NCBI GenBank assembly: GCA_018335035.1
Contig: JAGXKT010000015.1
Location: 14,590 to 52,810 of the forward strand
DNA: 38,221 nucleotides
DNA from: Phycisphaerae bacterium
GTDB taxonomy: Bacteria > Planctomycetota > Phycisphaerae > SM23-33
Reading direction: 5' to 3'
The notes beneath the pieces were generated by a model that searched no databases, was not told the origin of the DNA, and saw only the letters and a program-made list of their open reading frames with translations. This document shows, piece after piece, positions 3,023 through 17,158 of this stretch. Position numbers and translations under genes: made by a program. Position 1 is the stretch's first letter. Each line of letters begins with the position of its first letter.

Positions 3023-3115
3023 GCGGGGCGCAGGCGTCGCGGAGCACGCGGCCCGCCGTCGCACGCCCGGTCGCAATGTGCTACACTTCCGGCCCCTGCC
3101 CGGATGGAGTCGCCG

Positions 3116-5143
3116 ATGCCGTCAGAAGCTCAGTCCACATCGCAGCCACAGGTAGAGCTAACGCGCGGCGCGTCGTGGCAATATCGCGCTGTGGTCGACG
3201 GTGCGGCGCGCCCGTGGCGTCCAAGCGTGGTCGAGGCCCTGGACGGTCTGGCGCCACAGCGCCGCCCGCTGGACTGGCCACGGCAATGGACAGCGTTCGA
3301 CGCCGGGAAGTACAAGGGCCCGTTGCGACCGGTCTCCGATCCCCGCAGCGGCCCCATCCCGCCACGCGAGACGCTGGCCTGCATGCCGCAGACGTTGACG
3401 CTCGGCGGACGAGCGTGTCCCGACGCCGTGTTGACGTGCGACGATCGCAACGCCGTGTACCTGACCGAACCTTTCGGCGCGCCGCGCTCGGGTCGCACGG
3501 CCTACCTGTTCGCCGAGATTGACGTCGACGCCGACGGCGAGGTGACCTTCCACCTCAGCAGCGATTGGTGGATGCAGGCCTGGGTCGACGGCGAGCCGCT
3601 CGGCGATACGCTGAGCACGTCGAACCGCGCGCCGCTGCACGGGCACGCCCGGCGTTACACCGCCGAGCTAGCCGCCGGGACGCACACGCTGGCCGTGCGG
3701 GCGATCAGCGGCAACGGCGGCTGGGCCTTCGCCGGACAGGCGTCGCGCCTGGTGGGCCCGGCGCCGGAGGGCGACCGGGACTTCTCCGTCGAGGCGCGAT
3801 TGCCGTTCGAGGTGAGCGACCCGGCGCGGTTCGCCTCGCTGAGTTTCGTCGGCCCCGAGAGCCGGCGCCCGCAACTCAACGGGCGGGACATCCCCACGCC
3901 CCTGTCGAACATGCGTTACCGCGTGGTGCCCGGCATTCCGTCGGAGATGCTCCACGCCGGCACCAACGAGCTGGACCGCGCGTGGGACTCGGCCGCCAGC
4001 CAGGCGGCCGCCCGCGTGACGGACGTGACGCACTTTACCGGCAGCGGCGGCGACGAGCGGCTGCTGGTCGGCGGGCGGCTCGTGGGACTGACCCGCGAGG
4101 CGGCGGACATCCAGACCGGTCCCGTCCTGCATACCTTCGGCGAGGACTTCTTCACGCTGAGCTGCCGGACGAACATGCGCGTCCCGGCCGTGCTGCGCGT
4201 CGACGAGCGCGAGATCCGCAGCGAGCCCGCCCTGATCCACCGTTTCACCATCCCGGCCCTGCGCGGCGGGACGGCGTACCCCTACACGGTCGGCCCGGCG
4301 GGCGCGGACGCCGACCGCCGCCGTAGCGGCCGCGTGCGCACGCTGGGCGACGACGAGCGATTTACTTTCGCCGTCATCGGCGACGAAGGCCCCCTGCCGG
4401 AGGTCTGGCAGCGTACGGCCGCCGAGGTCGCCCGGCGCGACCCGCTGTTTGTAGTCTTCTGCGGGGACATGGTCGACCAGGGACAGGCAGACGCCGAGTG
4501 GGACGAGAAGTTCATCGGGCTGGCGCGGGAGCTATTCACCAACGTGCCGCTGTATCCGGCAATCGGCAACCACGACAAGAACGGCGGCCTGGCCGAGCGG
4601 CTGTTCATGACGCCCGGCGGCGGATGGAACTGGTCCCAGCGTTTGGGCCCGGTGCTGCTGATCGGCGTGGACGGGGCCGGCGACGTCGGCGCCGACAACC
4701 GCTGGACCGACTGGCTCGAGACGCAGCTCGACGCGACCGACGCGGCGTACGTGTTCCTGTTCAACCACTACCCGGCATGGTCGTCGGCGGGACACGGGCG
4801 GCTGGACGAGACCGGCCGGCCCGTCGAGCCGACGGTGCGCTTCGCACGCGACGTGATCGTCCCCGCACTGGCGCGACATAACGCCACGGCGATGTTCAAC
4901 GGGCACGACCACTGCTACGAGCGATCCGAGTTGCCCGGCGGGGTGACGCAGATCACCACCGGCGGCGCGGGGGCGTACCTCTACGACAAGACCGAGAACC
5001 CCCACCAGAACCCCTACTCGCGACAGTACGTCAGCACGCACCATTACTGCCTAGTCGACGTCGCGCCGGATGCCTGCCGCCTGCACGCCTGGGACCTTGA
5101 GGGCACCTGCATCGCGGAGCACACCTGGCAGCCGCGAGACTGA
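3116..5143 (+). CDS. Metallophosphoesterase, purple-acid-phosphatase-like, with N-terminal beta-sandwich
   Basis: Likely a dinuclear-metal phosphoesterase of the purple acid phosphatase type. In 675 residues: an N-terminal beta-sandwich (about 125-215, rich in DVDADGEV and SDWWMQAWVDGE) resembling PA14/carbohydrate-binding modules; an FnIII-like segment (about 330-405, HTFGEDFFTLSCRTN) as precedes the catalytic domain in this family; then catalytic motifs FAVIGDEG, FCGDMVDQ, IGNHDKNGG, FNHYPAW and MFNGHDHCYERS. All ligand positions are present. No signal peptide or lipobox is seen, unusual for this type. The start at 3116 has GGAG six bases upstream; an in-frame ATG at 3104 lacks a ribosome site. 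An extended -10, TGCTACACT (3079-3087), precedes it. It converges on another metallophosphoesterase, 12 nt away, of a different subfamily. Substrate unknown. Confidence 0.88.
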   Translation: MPSEAQSTSQPQVELTRGASWQYRAVVDGAARPWRPSVVEALDGLAPQRRPLDWPRQWTAFDAGKYKGPLRPVSDPRSGPIPPRETLACMPQTLTLGGRACPDAVLTCDDRNAVYLTEPFGAPRSGRTAYLFAEIDVDADGEVTFHLSSDWWMQAWVDGEPLGDTLSTSNRAPLHGHARRYTAELAAGTHTLAVRAISGNGGWAFAGQASRLVGPAPEGDRDFSVEARLPFEVSDPARFASLSFVGPESRRPQLNGRDIPTPLSNMRYRVVPGIPSEMLHAGTNELDRAWDSAASQAAARVTDVTHFTGSGGDERLLVGGRLVGLTREAADIQTGPVLHTFGEDFFTLSCRTNMRVPAVLRVDEREIRSEPALIHRFTIPALRGGTAYPYTVGPAGADADRRRSGRVRTLGDDERFTFAVIGDEGPLPEVWQRTAAEVARRDPLFVVFCGDMVDQGQADAEWDEKFIGLARELFTNVPLYPAIGNHDKNGGLAERLFMTPGGGWNWSQRLGPVLLIGVDGAGDVGADNRWTDWLETQLDATDAAYVFLFNHYPAWSSAGHGRLDETGRPVEPTVRFARDVIVPALARHNATAMFNGHDHCYERSELPGGVTQITTGGAGAYLYDKTENPHQNPYSRQYVSTHHYCLVDVAPDACRLHAWDLEGTCIAEHTWQPRD

Positions 5144-5155
5144 GCGCAGCCCGTC

Positions 5156-6133
5156 TCAGCGCGAGGCGTCGCCGGAGGCCGGCACCAGTTCGATCAACCC
5201 GATTTCGGGTCGCGAGCAGAAGCGAATCCGCGGGGCCCGACCGCCCTCCGTGCCGATGCCGCGATTGACCAGTAGCGTCGTCTCGCCGACCCGGTGACGC
5301 CCCCGTGCGAATCGCCGTCCGTGGCGCGAGAGGGTTACCATCGCGCCGTAAAACGGCAACGCGACCTGCCCGCCGTGGGTGTGTCCGGCACAGTATACGT
5401 CGCCGCCGGCACGAGCGACGCGTTCGATCGCGTCCGGGCGATGGTGCAGCACGACGACCGCGGCGTCGTCGGGAACCTCCGCCAGCGCCGCCAGCAAGCC
5501 GTCGACGTCCCCATCCGCGCTGCCGGCAAGCCACACGTTGCCCGCCGACACACCGAGCGGCCGGGCCGCGCCGTCAAGCACGCGGACGCCGGCATCCGCG
5601 TAAAGGGGACCGACGGACAGCTCAGTGATACTCTCCCAGTTTCCCGTCACGGCGTAGACCGGCGCGATGCGCCTCAAGGAGCGCATCAGCGTGCGGAAAT
5701 TCTCCCGCCCGGCCGGCGCGTTGATCGCGTCGCCCGTGAAGACGATCGCGTCCGGCTCCAAGGCCGCGATCCGCTCGGGCAGTTCGTCTTCCAGGCGAAC
5801 CTTGGCGTCGCAGTGCGTGTCGGATATGTGAACGAGCCGGATGGGGCTGCTTTGCGGCGGCAGTTGGCTCAGCACGATACGGTGGCGGGTGACCTCCGGC
5901 CAGTAGGGCTCAACGCCCCACGCGTACAGCCCGCAGAGCAATTCCACGACAAACAGGCCGACCAGCACGCGCTCGGTGATGCGTCGCCACCGCCGGGACG
6001 GGCCCGGACGACGCCGAGCGGACCGCACAAACCAGCGGATCAGCACACTGGCCGCCAATACAGCAACGACCACGGCGCCAAGGGGCACGCCGACGGCGAC
6101 GACCTGCTCCCACCACCTCAACCCGCGCAACAT
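5156..6133 (-). CDS. Membrane-anchored metallophosphoesterase, YkuE-like, with GNWE in place of GNHE
   Basis: Two N-terminal membrane segments (about residues 10-33 and 54-73) separated by an Arg-rich loop lead into a calcineurin-like domain of the YkuE/LpxG kind: HISDTHCD (D105, H107), FTGDAIN (D135), VTGNWESIT (N165), VVVLHHRPD (H230), CAGHTHGGQ (H251, H253) and a terminal RGIGTEGG...RFCSRPEI stretch typical of YkuE. Members are envelope-associated phosphoesterases, some acting on lipid A precursors or other pyrophosphates. The His of the GNH[DE] motif, normally the catalytic acid next to the metal ligand Asn, is Trp166 here. Start has AAGGA about 9 nt upstream. 325 residues, normal length. 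The 104-nt spacer upstream (6134-6237) shows no clear signal. Physiological substrate is not predictable. Confidence 0.86.
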   Translation of the reverse strand: MLRGLRWWEQVVAVGVPLGAVVVAVLAASVLIRWFVRSARRRPGPSRRWRRITERVLVGLFVVELLCGLYAWGVEPYWPEVTRHRIVLSQLPPQSSPIRLVHISDTHCDAKVRLEDELPERIAALEPDAIVFTGDAINAPAGRENFRTLMRSLRRIAPVYAVTGNWESITELSVGPLYADAGVRVLDGAARPLGVSAGNVWLAGSADGDVDGLLAALAEVPDDAAVVVLHHRPDAIERVARAGGDVYCAGHTHGGQVALPFYGAMVTLSRHGRRFARGRHRVGETTLLVNRGIGTEGGRAPRIRFCSRPEIGLIELVPASGDASR

Positions 6134-6237: not shown

Positions 6238-9200
6238 TCAGGCGATACGCAACACGGTCCGCCATAGGAACATGCCGGCCAGGTACACGGCCAGGTACAC
6301 GGTCAGCCACCATCCCTTCGCCCACGGCTCGGGGGGAATGAGGTAGCAATAGCGTGCGGGCGGCTTGGTCTTGTACGTGTTGCTATAGCTGAGCTTGACC
6401 GCCATAAGCGGCGCGGGCTTGGGTTTCTTCCGCGCGGAATCCGACTTCTTCTCGCCGTCGGCCTTCTCGGGCTGGTCCTCCGGCGGCAACTCCGCCCACC
6501 CGGCCGCAACAGGCGGCGCGGGGGGCTCGCCGGCGCCCATGGCGGCCGTGACGGTCACGGGTTTGCCGACGTCGGCCTGGACGGTGATCGGATACCGCCC
6601 GCGCTGGCGCGGGGCCGACAGATCCCACGTGAAGCTCTGCGGCGGCAAGGGAGTGGGGTCCTCGTTGTCGTTTAGTCTGAGCAATTGATCGGCCAGGGCC
6701 TCACGCACACCCAGATCGGTGGCGCTTTTGTCGTCGCCGGGCCCCTGCCGCAGCCGCCGGGCCACAAGCTTGAGCCCCTCGCGCAGGTCCGGGGCCGACT
6801 GGCTGGGCGTGCCGCGCTTGAGCGGCATCTGCTCAGGCGGCGTGATGGTCACGTCTCCCGTATAGTCGCCAAGGACCACGGCGGTGACCGTGACGTCTTC
6901 GCCCTCGTGGGGCGTGGAAACGTCCGGCGCGATCCGACCGGGCAGCCAGACGAAGCTCATGATCATCGGGCCGAGGATCAGCGCCAGCGGCAGCATCGCC
7001 GCGCCGACGATCCGCGCCTGCACGGGCCCTGCCAAGCGCTCCAGCTGGCGCCGCCGCGGACAGCCGCGGGGCAGCTTGCCAGCCAGTTTTCGCAACCGCC
7101 CGGCGCGCTGCTTGGCGACGCGCAGCCGCGTGTTGTCCGTCAGGAAGCGCTGCCCGACCATCGTCAGTGTCGCCAGCACGGCCGCCAGGACGATCACCAC
7201 GCCGCCCTTGGACCAACCAACCACGACCGGCCAGAGCACGGCGTCCAGCGCCGTCATCGAGCCCTCGTAGAGCCACTGGCCCGGCAGCAGGAACACGCCC
7301 ACCAGGTACACGCCCCAGAGAAGCAGGAACCAGTTGCGGACCTCGGCGACGGTCCGTTCGCGCCGACCGGCGACCGGCGGAATCATCTCGAAAGGCACGT
7401 GCGTGTCCGTGGGGTCCTGCTCGTCCGCCTCCGTCGCGTCGGACGGGGCCGCCTCGGCGGCCTCGTCCGGCGTCCCGCGGAACACGCCCCCGTCGCGCCC
7501 GTCGACCGTGACGGTCTCGCCGTTGCTGAGCAACTGCGTGGCGTTGGGCAGCACCACCGCGGGGATGCCCATCTCGCGCGCGACCACAGCCCCGTGCGAC
7601 AGCGTGCCGCCGCACTCGATAATCAGACCGGCCGCGTTGACGAACAGCGGCGTCCAGCTCGGATCGGTGCTGGGGCAGACCAGGACGTAGCCCTCGCCCA
7701 GGTCGCCGGCCTCATCGGGGCTGAACACGATCCGCGCCGGGCCGCTGCGCAGCCCGCTGGAGATCGGCAGCGCCGCGTGACGCGCCTCGCTGTCGAGACG
7801 CGGCGGCTCACCGAGTTCGGCGATGTCCTGCTCGCCGATGATATTGGGCAGTACGAGCTTGGCCTCGGCGGCGCGCTCGATGCGGCGGTTCTCGATCAGG
7901 TGCAGCGGCGCAAAGCCCGTGCTCATCGCGTCGCGCAGCTCCTCGAACGTCAGCAGGAACACGTCCTCGCCGACCTCCAGGCGTCGCCCGGCCTCCAGGG
8001 CCATCTCGCGCAGCAACTCGTACCCGCGCATCAGGTGGTACTTGCCGTCCTCGCGGAAGCGGACGTATCGCTGAAGCACGTCCACGTGGTGGCGGAATTC
8101 CTGCCGGCGCTTGGCCGGGAGCTTCGCGGCGATCTCGTCGGCCTTGGCGCGGGCCTCGGCCGCGCGGCGCTCATGCATCTCCGCCGGGCTGTCGCCGACC
8201 GAGAGGCGCGAGACCATCGACTGCACGGCTTCCGGGCGCTCCCGCCAGCGCGGGGCGGCCAGGTCGAACTCCGCCGGCGCCCGGTGCCCGTGATCGGCGA
8301 GCCAGTCCTCCACCGTCTTGCCGCCCCGGGCGATCTCGTAGAGCCCCTGCCCGGCCAGGATCGTCTGGTCGCCCGCCCCGCCGGCCGAAAGAAGATTGAC
8401 CACCTCGTTCGGGTCTTCCTGCCAGACGTTCTCGGCCAGGAAGCTGCGCAGGTTCTCCATGGCCATGGCGGCGATCAAGCTGGGCAGAAGCGACTGGGGC
8501 GCGAACTCGTCCATCACGCGCCGCTCACGCTCGTGCCAGAGGTCGAACCATTCCTTCTCGCTGAGGGCGGTCAAGTCGCGGGCCTTTTCGGCATCGACCC
8601 ACCGACTGAACTCGGGGATGTCCTGTTCGTCGAGCGTGCGGTCGTGGTCCTTGGAAAGCGCTTCGAGCCGCTCGTTGATCTCCGCGAGCTTTCCGGCAAC
8701 CCGCATCCGCTGGCGCAGCGAGCCGGCCGGGATCGTCGGCGGGCCTTGGGCCGCGTCCGGATTGGCTTGCAGCAGATCAAGATCGTACTCGAAGGGGAAG
8801 TCCTCGAAGAACATGTCCGGCGCGCGGCTGAGGTCCATGTAGACCCGCCCGCCGACGCGGTCGAGGAACCCGTCGCGGCTGACGGCGGGCGAGGGCTCGA
8901 AGCCGACCTGGCGGTACATGCTGCCGAACCCGCCGTCGCCGGACATGAACCGTTTGATGACGCTCCAGGTCAGTGGCGTCGGATGCGGAAGCGTCTCGGA
9001 GATATTGTGGCGGACCCAGTCGCCGCGGCCGTCGCGCTTCCAGCGGCGCAGATCCTCGCGGGTCTGCTGGAGCCGCCGCTCGTAGGCCTCGGCGTCTTCC
9101 AGCGTGGTCACCGCCCGCGACTGGAGCAAGTAGACCTTGCCGTCGGCGATCGCCCACTCCACGTCCTGGGCCGAGCCGAAGTGCTCCATCACGCGCAGCC

Positions 9201-9927
9201 CCAGCCGCCAGAGGTCCCGAACGTCCTCGCTTCTGAGGCAGGCGACGTTGCGACGCTCGTCCGCCACCGGGCGCCGCTCGTGCGTGCCCGGCATGATCGC
9301 CTCGCGCTTCTCCCCAACGGCCACACTGGTCACCGCCCCGGTGGCGCGGTCGACCACGAGCGTGTCCGGCTGGACGATGCCGCTGACGACCGCCTCGCCG
9401 AGGCCCCAACTGGCCTCGATGAGCATCTCCGCCTGCGAGCCCGTCCGCGGGTTGGCCGTAAACAGCACGCCGGCCACGTCCGACGGCACCAGTTCCTGGA
9501 CGACCACGGCCATCGCCACCTGCGTCATGTCGATGCCCTGTTCGGCGAGGTAGCTTCGCGTGCGGTCGCTGTCGATGCTCCCCCAGCAGTGCGCCACGGC
9601 GTCGAGGACCTGGTCTTCGCCCTGGACGTCGAGGAGGGTCTCATACTGACCGGCCATCGAGGCGGTGGAGGTGTCCTCCGCCGTCGCCGAGGAGCGTACG
9701 GCCACGACGGGCGAACCGATGCGCCGGTAGCTCTGGCGGATCGCCTCGGCTACGGTCTCGTCGATCGGCCCGCCGCCGCAGGCGCGGTAGGCGTTCGTGG
9801 TGACCACGAAGCCCGAGGGCACGGGGAACCCGGCCGCCAGGAGGCGGGCAAGGTTGATCGCCTTGCCGCCGACGACCAGCGGGTCGTGACACTCGGCGAG
9901 CGGCAGAACCAGGGCACCATCAGGCAT
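6238..9927 (-). CDS. Rifampin-phosphotransferase-like dikinase fused to an EMC3/TMCO1-like membrane domain
   Basis: 1229 residues. Residues 1-285 form a PPDK/PEP-synthase ATP-binding domain (GGKAINLARLLAAGFPVPSGF, AVRSSATAEDTSTASMAGQYET, GVLFTANPRTG, QDVEWA...YLLQSRAVTT). Residues 285-720 are a helical substrate region, and 725-820 the swivelling phosphohistidine domain (DPSWTPLFVNAAGLI, GGTLSHGAVVAREMGIPAVV; His778). There is no PEP-binding TIM barrel, so the order matches rifampin phosphotransferase (Rph), not PEP synthase. After an acidic linker the chain continues with membrane segments near 865-885 and 898-925, a basic helix (TDNTRLRVAKQRAGRLRKL, 930-970), a segment near 973-995, a beta-rich domain (1005-1110) and a last segment (1205-1225). 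The helix-plus-segments part resembles DUF106/EMC3-TMCO1 of the Oxa1 superfamily; that part is my inference. Start ATG shares one base with the stop of the upstream gene (TAATG), so translation is coupled. Substrate unknown. Confidence 0.85.
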   Translation of the reverse strand: MPDGALVLPLAECHDPLVVGGKAINLARLLAAGFPVPSGFVVTTNAYRACGGGPIDETVAEAIRQSYRRIGSPVVAVRSSATAEDTSTASMAGQYETLLDVQGEDQVLDAVAHCWGSIDSDRTRSYLAEQGIDMTQVAMAVVVQELVPSDVAGVLFTANPRTGSQAEMLIEASWGLGEAVVSGIVQPDTLVVDRATGAVTSVAVGEKREAIMPGTHERRPVADERRNVACLRSEDVRDLWRLGLRVMEHFGSAQDVEWAIADGKVYLLQSRAVTTLEDAEAYERRLQQTREDLRRWKRDGRGDWVRHNISETLPHPTPLTWSVIKRFMSGDGGFGSMYRQVGFEPSPAVSRDGFLDRVGGRVYMDLSRAPDMFFEDFPFEYDLDLLQANPDAAQGPPTIPAGSLRQRMRVAGKLAEINERLEALSKDHDRTLDEQDIPEFSRWVDAEKARDLTALSEKEWFDLWHERERRVMDEFAPQSLLPSLIAAMAMENLRSFLAENVWQEDPNEVVNLLSAGGAGDQTILAGQGLYEIARGGKTVEDWLADHGHRAPAEFDLAAPRWRERPEAVQSMVSRLSVGDSPAEMHERRAAEARAKADEIAAKLPAKRRQEFRHHVDVLQRYVRFREDGKYHLMRGYELLREMALEAGRRLEVGEDVFLLTFEELRDAMSTGFAPLHLIENRRIERAAEAKLVLPNIIGEQDIAELGEPPRLDSEARHAALPISSGLRSGPARIVFSPDEAGDLGEGYVLVCPSTDPSWTPLFVNAAGLIIECGGTLSHGAVVAREMGIPAVVLPNATQLLSNGETVTVDGRDGGVFRGTPDEAAEAAPSDATEADEQDPTDTHVPFEMIPPVAGRRERTVAEVRNWFLLLWGVYLVGVFLLPGQWLYEGSMTALDAVLWPVVVGWSKGGVVIVLAAVLATLTMVGQRFLTDNTRLRVAKQRAGRLRKLAGKLPRGCPRRRQLERLAGPVQARIVGAAMLPLALILGPMIMSFVWLPGRIAPDVSTPHEGEDVTVTAVVLGDYTGDVTITPPEQMPLKRGTPSQSAPDLREGLKLVARRLRQGPGDDKSATDLGVREALADQLLRLNDNEDPTPLPPQSFTWDLSAPRQRGRYPITVQADVGKPVTVTAAMGAGEPPAPPVAAGWAELPPEDQPEKADGEKKSDSARKKPKPAPLMAVKLSYSNTYKTKPPARYCYLIPPEPWAKGWWLTVYLAVYLAGMFLWRTVLRIA

Positions 9928-11693
9928 TAGTCCGACTCCTCACCGACGTAGCAGCGCAGCCCGCCGGTCTCGCTGCCGACGAAGAGCATGCCGTCCTGGA
10001 CGAACGGGGAGCTGACGGTCAGCGCCTGCTCACCGGGTTTGGCCTCGTGGTTGATGTAGACCTTCTCCACACGCTCGCCGCTTGTGATATCGAACACCGC
10101 CATGTAGCCGTTCGTGCTGGTGGCGTAGACGTATTTGTCCGTTACGGCCGGAGCGCTCATCACCGGCGTTTCGCCGTCGACGCGCCCGCTCCAGAGGACC
10201 TCCCGCGTGGCGAGGTCGATCGCCATAATCGCGCCGGTGCGCACCGGCACGTAGGCCACGCCGTCGCGAACGGCGATCGCGCCGAGCACGGCATCCGGCA
10301 GATCGACGCGCCACTGTTCGTCGCCCGTCTTGCGGTCCAGCGCCAGCACCAGGCCCACCGGCTCAGCCGCACGGAACACGAAATCGCCCTTGCCGCAGCC
10401 GATGAGCGCCAGATCGTCGGTCAGCGTCACCGGCCCGGTGGCGGGGTACGGTGTGTCGGCCTTCCAGAGCACGCGCTGCTCGCCGCTGGCCTGAAGCTCC
10501 TCGTCGCTGGCGGTGCGCAGGGCGTAGACGGCCTTGCCGTTGAACCCGCTGCCGATGTAGCAGACCCCGTCGGCAATAGCGGGCGAGCTTTCCGGATCGT
10601 TCACGTCGTGGCGCCACAGCACCTTGCCATCCGAAATCCGCACGCACAGCACGAAGCCGGGGTGGCCTGAGGGCTTGTGCTCCTCCCCCACCTCGACGGC
10701 GCCCGCGCCGGCGACGACGATGTCCCCGGCGATCGCCGGCGAGCCCTCGATGTGCAACGGCGTCGGAATCGCCCAGTGCAGCGAACCGTCTGACGTGTTC
10801 AGACAGATGAGCTCCGAGTTGACGTCGGCGTGAAGCCCCTGGCCGATCACCAGGTATTCCCCGTCGGCCGTGACCGCCGGCGAACTGAAGAAGCCCTTGA
10901 ACTCGACCTCCTCGCCCGTGTTCGGATCCTCGCCGGACTCGACCTCCCAAAGCTCCCGGCCGGTCACGGCGTTCAGGCGGAAGACGCTGCCGTAGTTGCG
11001 CCCCAGCGCCATGTAGCACGAGGCGCCGTAAACGTCCTCGCCGACGACGGCCGGCGAAGAGAGGTACATCCGGGCCCGCTCACTCTCCGTCCACAGCCGC
11101 ATCAGATTGCGCGCGCTGTCCCCCCCGCCGTAGCCGGTGCGCCGCGGCCCGCCGCGGAAGTAGAACGCCTCGCCGGCGGCGTCGCCATGGCTGTCGCCAT
11201 CGCCGCTGCCGTCGCCGCCGTTGGCGGCCGAGGCGGTCGCCGGGCGCGTGGCGGGGTCCGCCCCCTCTTGAAGCCGCGCGATCTTGTCGCGCAGGGATTC
11301 CAATTCGGCTTCATACTTCTTGTTGATCCGGCGCTGCTTGATCCACCGGCCCCGAAGGTCCTGTTGCCGTGTCTCGTAGACGCTCCTGGCAAGCGTGGCC
11401 CAGATGGGCTGATTGTCAGGATCGCTTGCCTGTACCGCCGCCGCGGCGTCGTGGCGCGCATCCCCGTCACCGGTGAGGAACGTCACCAGCAGGATCACGC
11501 CGATGAGCACGGCGACTACGATGACCGGAATGTAGGGTTTCTCTTTGAACACGCGCATAAGCTCCTTGGGATTGAACAAGACCGCCAGCGCGCTGCTCAG
11601 CGCGGCGGCGATCGCCGGAACCACGGCGAAGCCGACGTTCACGAACACCGGAACCACGCCGACGCAGTCGGGCTGAACCACGAAATCTATCAT
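9927..11693 (-). CDS. Membrane-anchored PQQ-type (BamB-like) beta-propeller protein
   Basis: 588 residues. Two membrane segments (about 12-39 and 54-73), a charged helical stretch likely to form a coiled coil (105-143), a Gly/Asp/Ser-rich linker (145-175), then a beta-propeller made of repeated blades with SSPAVV, GSPAIAGD, ESSPAIADG, SAPAVTDK and SSPFVQDG before each blade and DGSLHW, DGKVLW, TGDEQW, TREVLW at the strand ends. This is the PQQ_2/BamB repeat pattern. The residues for PQQ binding cannot be judged; most such proteins are scaffolds. Start ATG at 11693 has AAAGGG 12 nt upstream; an in-frame extension of 22 codons is less likely. The gene overlaps the dikinase-membrane fusion by one base, so the two proteins are probably made together and may form one membrane complex. 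Confidence 0.85.
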   Translation of the reverse strand: MIDFVVQPDCVGVVPVFVNVGFAVVPAIAAALSSALAVLFNPKELMRVFKEKPYIPVIVVAVLIGVILLVTFLTGDGDARHDAAAAVQASDPDNQPIWATLARSVYETRQQDLRGRWIKQRRINKKYEAELESLRDKIARLQEGADPATRPATASAANGGDGSGDGDSHGDAAGEAFYFRGGPRRTGYGGGDSARNLMRLWTESERARMYLSSPAVVGEDVYGASCYMALGRNYGSVFRLNAVTGRELWEVESGEDPNTGEEVEFKGFFSSPAVTADGEYLVIGQGLHADVNSELICLNTSDGSLHWAIPTPLHIEGSPAIAGDIVVAGAGAVEVGEEHKPSGHPGFVLCVRISDGKVLWRHDVNDPESSPAIADGVCYIGSGFNGKAVYALRTASDEELQASGEQRVLWKADTPYPATGPVTLTDDLALIGCGKGDFVFRAAEPVGLVLALDRKTGDEQWRVDLPDAVLGAIAVRDGVAYVPVRTGAIMAIDLATREVLWSGRVDGETPVMSAPAVTDKYVYATSTNGYMAVFDITSGERVEKVYINHEAKPGEQALTVSSPFVQDGMLFVGSETGGLRCYVGEESD

Positions 11694-11714
11694 CGTCTGA
11701 GAGTGCCCTTTGTC

Positions 11715-11746
11715 ACGATGCCCGGCAGTCGGGATACGATGCCCGG
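11715..11746. repeat. Two 11-bp direct repeats, 21 bp apart, before the propeller gene
   Basis: ACGATGCCCGG occurs at 11715-11725 and 11736-11746 (plus strand), a period of 21 bp or two helical turns. The pair lies 22-53 bp upstream of the propeller-protein start, inside its presumed leader. A dimeric regulator binding one DNA face would fit, but no regulator is known. Confidence 0.6.
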
Positions 11747-11879
11747 GCGGAAGGTACACGGCTCACGCCGCCGGCAAGCACGCACGGCCGCGCCGTCGGC
11801 GCCGAGGACGCTTATGCACGCCGGCCGCGGAAACGACCGTACGCATGCAACCCTCGACGCCGGGGAATGTTTCGCCCCA

Positions 11880-14212: not shown

Positions 14213-14557
14213 TCAGTCGCCCTCGACGTCCAAATGTCCAACCGCGCCGGCGATGGGGACGCACACAGCATAGCCCACGCCCGGCTTGTCAAGGTCCAGC
14301 CCTACGCGCAGAAGCAGTTCCGCAAACCGTTGCGGCACATCGTCGCGGTTCGTCACGCCGACCAGCAGCTTGCTATCGGCGGTGGGACGCGTCATCAGCT
14401 CCCGCAGGCCGGCAAAGATCGGCGCCTCGCGCGACAGCACGTCCATCACCGTTGACGACTCGATAACCTGCACCCCCGCCACGTCCATCTCGACCAGCAC
14501 CGAGAGGAAGTCCTCGATGTTCTCCACGTCTTCGACGGCAACCAGCAGCAGGTTCAT
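14213..14557 (-). CDS. Small PII-like / ferredoxin-fold protein at the end of the antiporter operon
   Basis: 114 residues, cytoplasmic. The sequence begins MNLLLVAVEDVENIEDFLSV, continues with MDVAGVQVIESSTVMDVL, and has KLLVGVTNRDDVPQRFAELL and a final VGYAVCVPIAGAVGHL strand. The beta-alpha-beta / alpha-beta-beta order, with interaction through a flexible middle loop (EAPIFAGLRELMTRPTADS), resembles PII-like signalling proteins, which sense nucleotides and bind transporters. PII signature motifs are not present, so homology is an inference from layout and context. It overlaps the antiporter by 4 nt (ATGA) and is the last gene of the operon, a position often held by transporter-regulating PII-like proteins. 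A small-ligand or nucleotide sensor for the antiporter is the favoured guess. Confidence 0.7.
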   Translation of the reverse strand: MNLLLVAVEDVENIEDFLSVLVEMDVAGVQVIESSTVMDVLSREAPIFAGLRELMTRPTADSKLLVGVTNRDDVPQRFAELLLRVGLDLDKPGVGYAVCVPIAGAVGHLDVEGD

Positions 14558-15972
14558 GCGGTCTCTCCCTGCGTTGCGCCGGCCTGCCGTCCGGCAGGTG
14601 CCGCCGCGGCGATCTCGCCGGCGCGCGACAGCGCAAGCTTTGTGGTAAGCGGCCCGACGACCTCGAATATTATCGTCGTAGCCGCAATCGTGTTAATCGT
14701 CAACTCCGCCAGTTGTCGACCAAGCTCGCCGTAGAGCGGGTCGCGGAACTCGTTGGCGACCGTCAGCGCCAGCCCGATTGCCACACCCGCCTGCGACAGA
14801 ATTCCCAACCCCAAATACCGACGCACTGTCGGCTCCGCCCGCGACAGTGTCGCACCGAGGTACGCCCCGCCGATCAGCCCGGCCGAGCGCCCGACGATAT
14901 ACACGGGCCCCAGCAAACTTAGCGCCGCCAGCAGGCGCAGGTCCAGATGCGCCCCCGCCACGACGAAAAACAGCACGAACACCGGCCCCGTGATGCCCTG
15001 TATGGCCTGGTACGCGTGTTCCGTCTTGCGGCGCGACAGGTTCGCCAGCACCGCACCGACGCCGAGGTTCGCCAGAATCAGCGACAGGCCCAGTGCGTTG
15101 GCCAGACCCGTCGTCAGCAGGATCGCCCCAAGCGTGTAGATCAGCGCGTCGCCGTGATCGCCCCGTCGGGCGAGGATCACGCGCAGCTGCACGCCGACGA
15201 CGGCACCGACGGCGAGGCCGCCGACGATCTCCAGCACGGGCCCCTGTACCAACGAAACGAACGTCGGCGTACCGGCGCTGAGCAGAACCTTTGCCGCGGC
15301 GGCGGCGAAGGCGTAGATCATGATCGCGAACGCGTCGTCCAGCCCCACGATGCCCAACAGCAGACGCGTCAGAGGCCCGCGGGCGCCGTATTCCTGAATG
15401 ACCGCCACCGTGCCGGCCGGCGCGGATGCCGGCGCCATCGCGCCGAAGATCAGCGCCCCGGCGACCGCCAGCCCCGCCGGTAGCAGCCAGCCCGACAAAC
15501 TCCAGACCAACAGCGCGACAAATGCGAACGCCACCAGCGATTCGCTGACCATAATGATCAGCAGCTTCGCCCCCAGGCGGCGAATGAGCCGACGTGACAA
15601 CTCCGTACCGATCATGAACGCCACGATGCCCAGTCCGAAGTCCGTCACCAGCTCCAGCGCATCGGTTGCCTCGGCGCTGACAACGTTCAACACGCTGCGC
15701 CCCAGCACGATGCCCACCAGAAGGTATCCGACGACCATCGGCGCGCCGATCCGCGACGTCAGGCGCCCCCCAAACCGCCCCAGCAAGAGTGCGACGCCCA
15801 CCAGAAGCCAGTTCTGTATGTCGTGCAGGGCGTCGTAAACCGCAACCATCGCGCCGCCGTCGCCGTCTCCTGCCACGGCAACCGGCGCGGCACCGGCGAA
15901 GACCGCCCCCATCGCCAATACGGGCCACAGCGCCCACGCCGCCCCGCCGCTGCTATGCCACGCTCGGGTCAC
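14554..15972 (-). CDS. CPA2-family cation/proton antiporter (Kef/NhaS-like membrane domain)
   Basis: 472 residues, polytopic. After a possible N-terminal signal-like segment (LWPVLAMGAVFAGAAPVAVA) come about 12 hydrophobic segments. Family motifs: NWLLVGVALLLGRFGGRLTSRIG and GAPMVVGYLLVGIVLG at the start, FGLGIVAFMIGTELS, the AMAPASAPAGTVAVIQEYGARG block and VGLDDAFAIMIYAFAA, where the paired Asp is the ion-binding site. The protein ends soon after the membrane domain and has no TrkA-N/RCK domain, so control must come from separate proteins. GTG start within GTGA shared with the preceding EIIA stop. Exchanges K+ or Na+ for protons across the inner membrane; which ion cannot be told. Confidence 0.92.
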   Translation of the reverse strand: MTRAWHSSGGAAWALWPVLAMGAVFAGAAPVAVAGDGDGGAMVAVYDALHDIQNWLLVGVALLLGRFGGRLTSRIGAPMVVGYLLVGIVLGRSVLNVVSAEATDALELVTDFGLGIVAFMIGTELSRRLIRRLGAKLLIIMVSESLVAFAFVALLVWSLSGWLLPAGLAVAGALIFGAMAPASAPAGTVAVIQEYGARGPLTRLLLGIVGLDDAFAIMIYAFAAAAAKVLLSAGTPTFVSLVQGPVLEIVGGLAVGAVVGVQLRVILARRGDHGDALIYTLGAILLTTGLANALGLSLILANLGVGAVLANLSRRKTEHAYQAIQGITGPVFVLFFVVAGAHLDLRLLAALSLLGPVYIVGRSAGLIGGAYLGATLSRAEPTVRRYLGLGILSQAGVAIGLALTVANEFRDPLYGELGRQLAELTINTIAATTIIFEVVGPLTTKLALSRAGEIAAAAPAGRQAGATQGETA

Positions 15973-16424
15973 TGCTCAAACGCCTCGAACACGCTTCGCA
16001 CCGCAGCCGGGTCCGGCGCCTCGGCCACCGCCTCGGTGAAATCGCCCTGCTTGATCAGCAAGCTCAGATGAGCCAGCAACTTCAGGTAGGACTTCACCTT
16101 CCGCGTTGGTATGCCCATTAGGATGATGAGGCGCACGTTTTGGCCATCAACGGCTTGGAAATCCACGCCGTCCGGCACCCGCCCCACGGCGGCGACGAAA
16201 TCGTCAACGCTGTCGGTCCGCGCGTGCGGAATGGCCACGCCGTGACCGACGCCCGTGGTACTGTCCATCTCGCGGGCGAAGACCGCCCCGAGAAACTCGT
16301 CGAAATCCCGCACGCTTGCATGCCCGCGCAGCGTCTCGGCTACCTCGGCAATCGCCGCTTCCTTCGTCTCGACCTGAAGCGCTGGCAGGATCGTCTCATC
16401 CGTCAGAAATTCATAGAGTCTCAT
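15969..16424 (-). CDS. PTS EIIA domain protein (PtsN/fructose type), stand-alone
   Basis: 151 residues forming one EIIA-2 domain. It contains the phosphorylation motif GVGHGVAIPHART with His67 as the expected phosphorylated residue, followed by DGVDFQAVDGQNVRLIILMG and LKLLAHLSLLIKQ, all standard for the family. Such proteins take a phosphate from HPr-type donors and more often regulate than transport; PtsN in Proteobacteria controls potassium uptake. Here the next gene is a cation antiporter overlapping by 4 nt, and the gene before it is another EIIA, also overlapping by 4 nt. No PTS membrane permease is near, so a regulatory role in ion transport is the natural reading (inference). Confidence 0.92.
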   Translation of the reverse strand: MRLYEFLTDETILPALQVETKEAAIAEVAETLRGHASVRDFDEFLGAVFAREMDSTTGVGHGVAIPHARTDSVDDFVAAVGRVPDGVDFQAVDGQNVRLIILMGIPTRKVKSYLKLLAHLSLLIKQGDFTEAVAEAPDPAAVRSVFEAFEQ

Positions 16425-17158
16425 CGTTGGCCTTTCGCAACGCGCTGCTCAGCGGCATCGCACTCCAGGACACCTGCCGCCCGCCGGATGAACGCCTGCA
16501 CGTCGCGGCGGCTACGAATCCGCTCGATGTCGTGCATCAATCGCTGGTCCCGCGCCAACCAGCCGATCTTGGCCATCAACTGGAGGTGAATCTCCTCGCG
16601 GGTCGAACAGATCAGGAAGAACACGTGAACCCGCTGGTCGTCCACGGCGTCAAAGTCCGTCCCGTCCGGACAGACACCCAAGGCGACGGCCGGCTCAGGA
16701 AACATCCCCGGAACCGGTCGCCGCGGGTGGGGAATCGCGATGCGGTGTCCCACGGCCGTGCTCATCATCCGCTCGCGCTCCAGCAGTCCGGCAAGCAGCC
16801 GCTCCGGCTCGCGAGCGAAGCCCGTCTCCCGCAACGGCGTCATAAGCTGCCGCAGGATGCCCTCCTTCGGCGCCGGCGTCACACACGGATTGGACAGCTC
16901 GACGCGAATCACCTCATGCAGCGGAAGCAGTGGGCGATCCGCCTCGACCAGCTCGGCCGCCTCCGGCACCATCGTCTGCATCCGTCCGGCCAGCCAGTCA
17001 CGCACGACCGACCGCAGAAACCGCCACTGGCTGGCGATCTTCGCCGCCGGTATCTCGCCCCGCTGTGCCATCCGCACCACCGTCCGCTCGGCGAGCTGTA
17101 GATACGCCGCCACCTCGCTGACCGTCATCACTTCTCGATCGTGCTCGGCTGCAGTCAT
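16421..17158 (-). CDS. Excisionase-type HTH fused to PTS EIIA domain
   Basis: 245 residues. Residues 11-58 are a helix-turn-helix of the excisionase/MerR-like DNA-binding type (VSEVAAYLQLAERTVVRMAQ then GEIPAAKIASQWRFLRSVV). Residues 85-235 form an EIIA-2 domain with STAVGHRIAIPHPRRPVPGM (His144) and DGTDFDAVDDQRVHVFFLI. A phosphorylation-controlled DNA-binding or target-binding protein is likely. Second gene of the operon: 16 nt after the microprotein stop and overlapping the stand-alone EIIA by ATGA. The start at 17158 has only a weak TAGGT 15 nt upstream; MTVSEV at 17128 is an alternative that keeps the whole HTH. Likely regulates its own operon or sits on the antiporter; neither is shown. 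Confidence 0.88.
   Translation of the reverse strand: MTAAEHDREVMTVSEVAAYLQLAERTVVRMAQRGEIPAAKIASQWRFLRSVVRDWLAGRMQTMVPEAAELVEADRPLLPLHEVIRVELSNPCVTPAPKEGILRQLMTPLRETGFAREPERLLAGLLERERMMSTAVGHRIAIPHPRRPVPGMFPEPAVALGVCPDGTDFDAVDDQRVHVFFLICSTREEIHLQLMAKIGWLARDQRLMHDIERIRSRRDVQAFIRRAAGVLECDAAEQRVAKGQR

Follow-up and report, generated by a model that had tools for sequence, protein, structure and literature searches.

Gene organisation at the locus

The window, i.e. the whole analysed stretch of 38,221 nucleotides from contig JAGXKT010000015.1 of a Phycisphaerae bacterium, carries on its reverse strand (as do all features of the module given below) a gene with an ATG start (6238-9927), the 1229-aa product of which joins a dikinase resembling rifampin phosphotransferase (Rph) to an EMC3/DUF106-like membrane domain, as identified by Pfam matches and full-length homologous fusions. 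Directly upstream lies a partner gene (9927..11693, in the frame 9927-11759), the stop codon of which overlaps the dikinase start as TAATG, and which encodes an N-terminal two-helix membrane hairpin followed by a PQQ/BamB-like propeller. This gene occupies the upstream position in fused loci wherever the contig extends far enough, and in most loci in which the dikinase and membrane domain are split over two genes. The nearest PDB match of the propeller is BamB (4hdj, E 2e-24), assigning it to the PQQ-type propellers, although the conserved membrane hairpin stands in place of the outer-membrane lipoprotein character of BamB itself. The hairpin motif (VVPVFVN..P..LF.PRxL..KP) shows strong conservation across the fused loci and can still be recognised in the split loci. 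EMC1 was considered as the closest relative of the propeller and rejected, as it is absent among the matches listed, which are led by BamB and other PQQ propellers.

A gene for a secreted FG-GAP protein adjoins the module at many loci of both the fused and the split form (e.g. L013:5155-7263, L017:5259-7247 and L014:7855-9288), the Pfam FG-GAP assignment being obtained for 5/5 proteins tested; the window contains no such gene, but this genome encodes a homologue on a different contig. The remaining neighbours in the window (metallophosphoesterase, SdiA-regulated and Na/H antiporter genes) are not conserved with the module in homologous loci. These include two converging calcineurin-like phosphoesterase genes just downstream of the module (3104-5143 and 5156-6133), which are likewise not conserved with it. 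A PTS EIIA_2 domain together with an HTH_17 domain is encoded close to a Na+/H+ antiporter gene (16421-17158 and 14554-15972). No lipid or glycan biosynthesis gene is conserved beside the dikinase module in the loci compared, and a role as a defence system was set aside as PADLOC returned no match.

The dikinase region

The Rph-like domain order that the sequence-only reading had assigned to residues 1-820 was upheld by Pfam domains, by a search with the curated family model RIF_Ptrans_rph (NF041857) and by alignment to Listeria Rph (5fbs). The region begins with an ATP-grasp domain (PPDK_N; residues 1-283, 9079..9927), recognised by Pfam at residues 54-283 (E 3.4e-76) and by alignment to 5fbs, and ends with a phosphohistidine swivel domain (PEP-utilizers; residues 745-813, 7489..7695; Pfam E 4.6e-22). 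Between these domains lies a central, substrate-type region (residues 290-715, 7783..9060), which is kept in fused and split homologues. His778 (codon at 7594..7596) corresponds to the catalytic-type histidine, as GGTLSHGAVVARE of the window protein is matched in the alignment by GGLMTHGAVIARE in Listeria Rph, and the S-H-G motif at this position is present in 31/31 dikinases compared, which argues that the enzyme is probably active. The PEP-binding barrel that is the C-terminal hallmark of PEP synthase and PPDK (PEP-utilizers_C, PF02896) found no Pfam match at E<=0.1 in the 1229-aa protein, the membrane domain being present there instead. Thus, both the placement of His778 in a phosphohistidine domain and the lack of the barrel stand as originally proposed, and an ATP-grasp domain combined with a swivelling histidine domain in the absence of this barrel is the architecture of rifampin phosphotransferases.

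The closest solved proteins to residues 1-820 are indeed the Listeria rifampin phosphotransferases (5fbs/5hv1-3), to which residues 75-277 and 535-814 are alignable. Residues 278-534 gave no alignment to Listeria Rph, so that within the central region only residues 535-715 align. The RIF_Ptrans_rph score of 367.8 bits falls below the curated family cut-off of 999 and, given this score and the unalignable segment, rifampin is judged an unlikely substrate.

Segments and topology of the membrane domain

Four hydrophobic segments are present in the protein (approximately residues 863-881, 907-928, 973-991 and 1206-1226), the fourth of which was recognised from sequence and model as it lies under the hydropathy threshold. 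The first, TM0 (residues 863-881, 7285..7341), is an extra helix missing from the split form. It is followed by an LDAVLWP-type helix (residues 884-903, 7219..7278), identified by secondary structure and by its alignment with LDAIFMP of the archaeal DUF106 protein MJ0480, and by TM1 of the EMC3-like core (residues 907-930, 7138..7209), a basic, predicted cytosolic helical hairpin (residues 931-970, 7018..7137) and TM2 (residues 971-996, 6940..7017). TM1 and TM2 were delimited by the MJ0480 alignment and hydrophobicity, and the hairpin by the same alignment, its charges and secondary structure. A beta domain predicted to be extracytoplasmic (residues 1000-1195, 6343..6930), delineated by the model and by comparison of the branches of the family, precedes the last membrane helix, TM3 of the core (residues 1205-1226, 6250..6315), for which the MJ0480 alignment is weak alone and is accompanied by a helix in the model. 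The expectation of four membrane segments with a basic stretch was therefore borne out, the latter (13 K/R) being positioned between the second and third segments. The beta domain had been put at 100 residues; this figure requires correction, as the region spans approximately 190 residues (1000-1195), a helical part included. As the beta region of the third-branch profile (see below) matched filamin Ig domains at E 0.002, this domain may be Ig-like.

The first, outer loop contains 0 K/R residues, the hairpin has a net charge of +12 and the beta loop one of -1. We infer that the dikinase, the basic hairpin and the C-terminus are cytosolic, and that the beta domain and the propeller are extracytoplasmic. 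The split protein possesses three membrane helices and the fused protein four, TM0 being confined to the fused form. With the dikinase remaining inside and the former N-terminus of the membrane protein outside, a fusion needs an added helix; TM0 would accordingly serve to keep the dikinase cytosolic in the fused form, and the charge pattern agrees with such a role.

Relationship to the DUF106/EMC3 family

Profiles were built from 13 homologues of the membrane domain (A1), from the split homologues (A4) and from a third branch of the family (A6). The best PDB match of A1 (residues 845-1229) was MJ0480 (5c8j; E 4.7e-9), the next match having an E value of 0.12, which sustains the earlier suggestion of a DUF106/EMC3-like membrane part. 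The alignment covers the first two helices and the hairpin, with the last helix in the right place, albeit weakly. MJ0480 was also the best PDB match of the independently built profiles A4 (E 1.4e-7) and A6 (E 1.5e-8), and the three profiles matched one another over the whole domain, the beta part included (A1-A4, E 1.4e-17; A1-A6, E 2.1e-17; A4-A6, E 7.6e-26). Furthermore, among 2179 ORFs of the fetched loci, A1 and A4 matched only each other's families.

Individual sequences behaved less uniformly against Pfam EMC3_TMCO1 (PF01956). The window protein alone gave no match at E<=1, nor did its residues 845-1229, while 7/13 homologues of the membrane domain matched (best E 0.0011) and the split homologues L046 (27.1) and L050 (30.6) reached the cut-off of 27.1. 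Additional PF01956 matches in L051, L052, L085 and L087-L089 were missed by A1 and A4 and have no adjoining dikinase, and were taken as chance coiled-coil similarity. YidC/Oxa1 proper (PF02096) was not matched by the window protein or the homologues tested, and a separate, normal YidC is encoded in the same genome. EMC6 (PF07019) was found in 0/40 genomes, with a model that is insensitive (its control was matched in 1 genome only, below the cut-off).

AlphaFold models obtained from two-row alignments (the window and L013 sequences) reached pLDDT values of 52 for residues 845-1229 and 63 for residues 875-1005. With these low-confidence models, Foldseek gave nothing significant and VIA-align returned generic long helices only; a Get1/Get2 chain (8cr1_C, Z 6.8) among these generic matches was not counted. 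Profile comparison assigns the domain to the Oxa1 superfamily and, within it, to the DUF106/EMC3/TMCO1 type; the order of its helices and its charges fit a three-helix core with a cytosolic helical hairpin.

Fused and split forms and their distribution

The membrane domain occurs in 10/100 related genomes, always as a fusion where the reading frame is complete, and also elsewhere in the phylum; the presence of the fusion in close relatives, on which the original proposal depended, is thereby established. Full-length fused homologues of approximately 1190-1270 aa exist in related and further genomes of the phylum (among them L017, 1237 aa, and L059, 1186 aa), including that of the named isolate Aporhodopirellula aestuarii (Planctomycetota), and the fusion is thus no assembly accident. 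In other genomes, a separate EMC3-like gene, mostly of approximately 245-330 aa, directly follows a same-strand dikinase gene in 24/24 loci with upstream DNA on the contig (L046, 48, 49, 50, 53, 54, 61, 62, 63; L080-84, L086, L090; L101, 102, 103, 105, 123, 135, 136, 137). In a tree of the dikinase region, at least 17 fused members are set apart from 14 split members by one branch with a support of 100/100, the simplest reading of which would be one fusion or one fission event. Across the phylum, a search with A4 located the EMC3-like family in 48/392 genomes (~12%), complete ones included, in a survey that covers one phylum and mostly draft genomes.

Many split dikinases, and the fused members L015 (5805-10259) and L016 (7348-11028), start with an ATP-grasp domain of PPDK type rather than PEP-synthase type. 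As these two fused members are nested among PEP-synthase-type members in the tree, the N-terminal part has apparently been exchanged. The dikinase ORF of L015 (5805-10259) is additionally broken by repeated in-frame stretches (EFPFVECGSEATA...), i.e. an expanding repeat within the coding sequence.

A second operon type

The third EMC3-like branch comprises 15 weaker A4 members (L124-L134 and L138-L141) and is not accompanied by a dikinase; instead, two large conserved genes of one family adjoin in 15/15 loci. By Pfam analysis of 5 loci, these tandem genes encode type I phosphodiesterases, which are apparently extracytoplasmic. Near some third-branch loci, genes that appear to encode ATP sulfurylase, APS kinase and sulfotransferase were also observed. 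As the EMC3-like family occurs with dikinases and with phosphodiesterases, it is associated with phosphate-handling enzymes in two settings unrelated to each other, which makes phosphate chemistry the common theme.

Possible functions of the module

It is almost certain, from comparisons at the sequence level, that the module consists of an Rph-type dikinase engine attached to a three-helix DUF106/EMC3-type core, which bears a basic hairpin and into which a beta domain is inserted, together with a co-encoded propeller. As regards its mechanism, we tentatively favour a membrane-anchored dikinase that phosphorylates a membrane-borne substrate, an account which as a whole is plausible rather than probable. 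The ATP-grasp domain would phosphorylate His778, and the swivelling histidine domain would ferry the phosphate to the central domain, where it would be passed to a hydroxyl of the substrate presented at the inner leaflet by the EMC3-like groove. This substrate would most likely be a lipid alcohol or another lipophilic molecule, and the propeller and the beta domain would hold or sense a partner outside. This proposal draws on the domain content, the DUF106 homology, the fused/split tree, the adjacency in 24/24 split loci, TM0 and the charges, the S-H-G motif in 31/31 dikinases and the pairing with phosphodiesterases in 15/15 loci. The lack of a conserved lipid or glycan gene, the poor models (pLDDT 52/63) and the failure of the window protein to match PF01956 argue against it. 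Furthermore, the Oxa1-superfamily proteins of known function are, to our knowledge, insertases and not lipid-presenting scaffolds.

A rival reading is a dedicated EMC-like insertase or chaperone, in which certain proteins (e.g. the secreted FG-GAP proteins) would be inserted or exported by the EMC3-like domain and the dikinase would regulate or drive the process by phosphotransfer. The fold is that of an insertase family (PMC8887752), FG-GAP genes adjoin the module in fused and split loci, and the propeller and outer beta domain are reminiscent of the EMC1 propellers in the lumen and of the beta-barrels of EMC7/EMC10 (PMC7292650). However, the genome already possesses a normal YidC, the EMC6-type partner was found in 0/40 genomes (by an insensitive model), the propeller matches listed are BamB and other PQQ propellers rather than EMC1, and the window itself is devoid of an FG-GAP gene. 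We also know of no insertase that uses a dikinase, and this function is considered unlikely. Rated only slightly below it is a bacterial EMC-like machine, in which an Oxa1-superfamily core of archaeal/eukaryotic type and an EMC1-like outer propeller would be powered or controlled by the ATP-dependent phosphohistidine dikinase for the phosphorylation-dependent placing or moving of a membrane or secreted substrate, or of a lipid.

The membrane domain might alternatively just localise the dikinase, whose substrate would then be a soluble metabolite or drug of the cytosol, handled in Rph-like detoxification or catabolism. While the Rph enzymes are the closest solved relatives of residues 1-820 and the Rph-like HpeHI takes other small molecules (PMC12167813), mere tethering fits poorly with the strict association of the dikinase with one membrane family, in split and fused forms alike, and with the propeller, and with the missed RIF_Ptrans_rph cut-off; it is regarded as improbable. 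The least probable of the functions weighed is a PTS-like vectorial phosphorylation, in which a small molecule, with the propeller as its receptor, would cross inward through the membrane domain and be phosphorylated by the cytosolic phosphohistidine domain as it enters. In favour of such a process, phosphohistidine chemistry is coupled here both to a membrane domain and to a domain of binding type on the outside, yet the three-helix DUF106 core is no known solute channel and the third branch is paired with phosphodiesterases, not a kinase.

Comparison with known systems

The PTS (enzyme I and membrane EIIC) similarly has a phosphohistidine swivel domain serving a membrane unit; it is driven by PEP and not by ATP, operates through an HPr/EIIA/EIIB relay, and its membrane fold is unrelated to that of the window protein. 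Rifampin phosphotransferases share the ATP-grasp domain, the swivel domain with its aligned histidine, the alignable residues 535-814 and the lack of a PEP barrel, and differ in that the window protein has a membrane domain, an unalignable segment (278-534) and a score far under the family cut-off. The two-component HpeHI is likewise an Rph-like small-molecule dikinase split over genes; however, no membrane domain is described for it, and its division separates the ATP-grasp domain from the remainder rather than falling at a membrane domain (PMC12167813). DUF106/Ylp1 of archaea (MJ0480, 5c8j; PF01956) has TM1, the basic helical hairpin, TM2 and the last helix in the same order, together with the LDA..P motif and P-x6-P in TM2, whereas the window protein is bacterial, has a large beta domain between TM2 and TM3, and is extended ahead of the core by TM0 and a dikinase; no EMC6 was found with it (by the insensitive model). 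The ER membrane complex (EMC1/EMC3; PMC7292650) also has an EMC3-type core, the outer side of which carries one or more propellers and small beta domains, but is without a dikinase, and in the window the PQQ partner matches BamB and other EMC subunits were not seen.

The literature searched contained no description of a dikinase joined to an Oxa1-superfamily/DUF106/EMC3 membrane core, nor of such a family in Planctomycetes, and titles on the pairing of FG-GAP and PQQ proteins held nothing relevant. The parts thus belong to known families, and the combined system is new within that literature. DUF106 has been called an archaeal family (PMC8887752); here, a family of this type recurs across a bacterial phylum, where it is encoded in two types of operon that are each linked with a phosphate-handling enzyme. 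The membrane half is of the kind by which proteins are threaded into membranes in archaea and in human cells. The recurrence of the pairing across the phylum suggests a membrane-bound phosphorylation machine that is undescribed in the literature searched. If the proposed mechanism is true, it would amount either to a new route for the phosphorylation of membrane substrates or to a novel role for the insertase fold.
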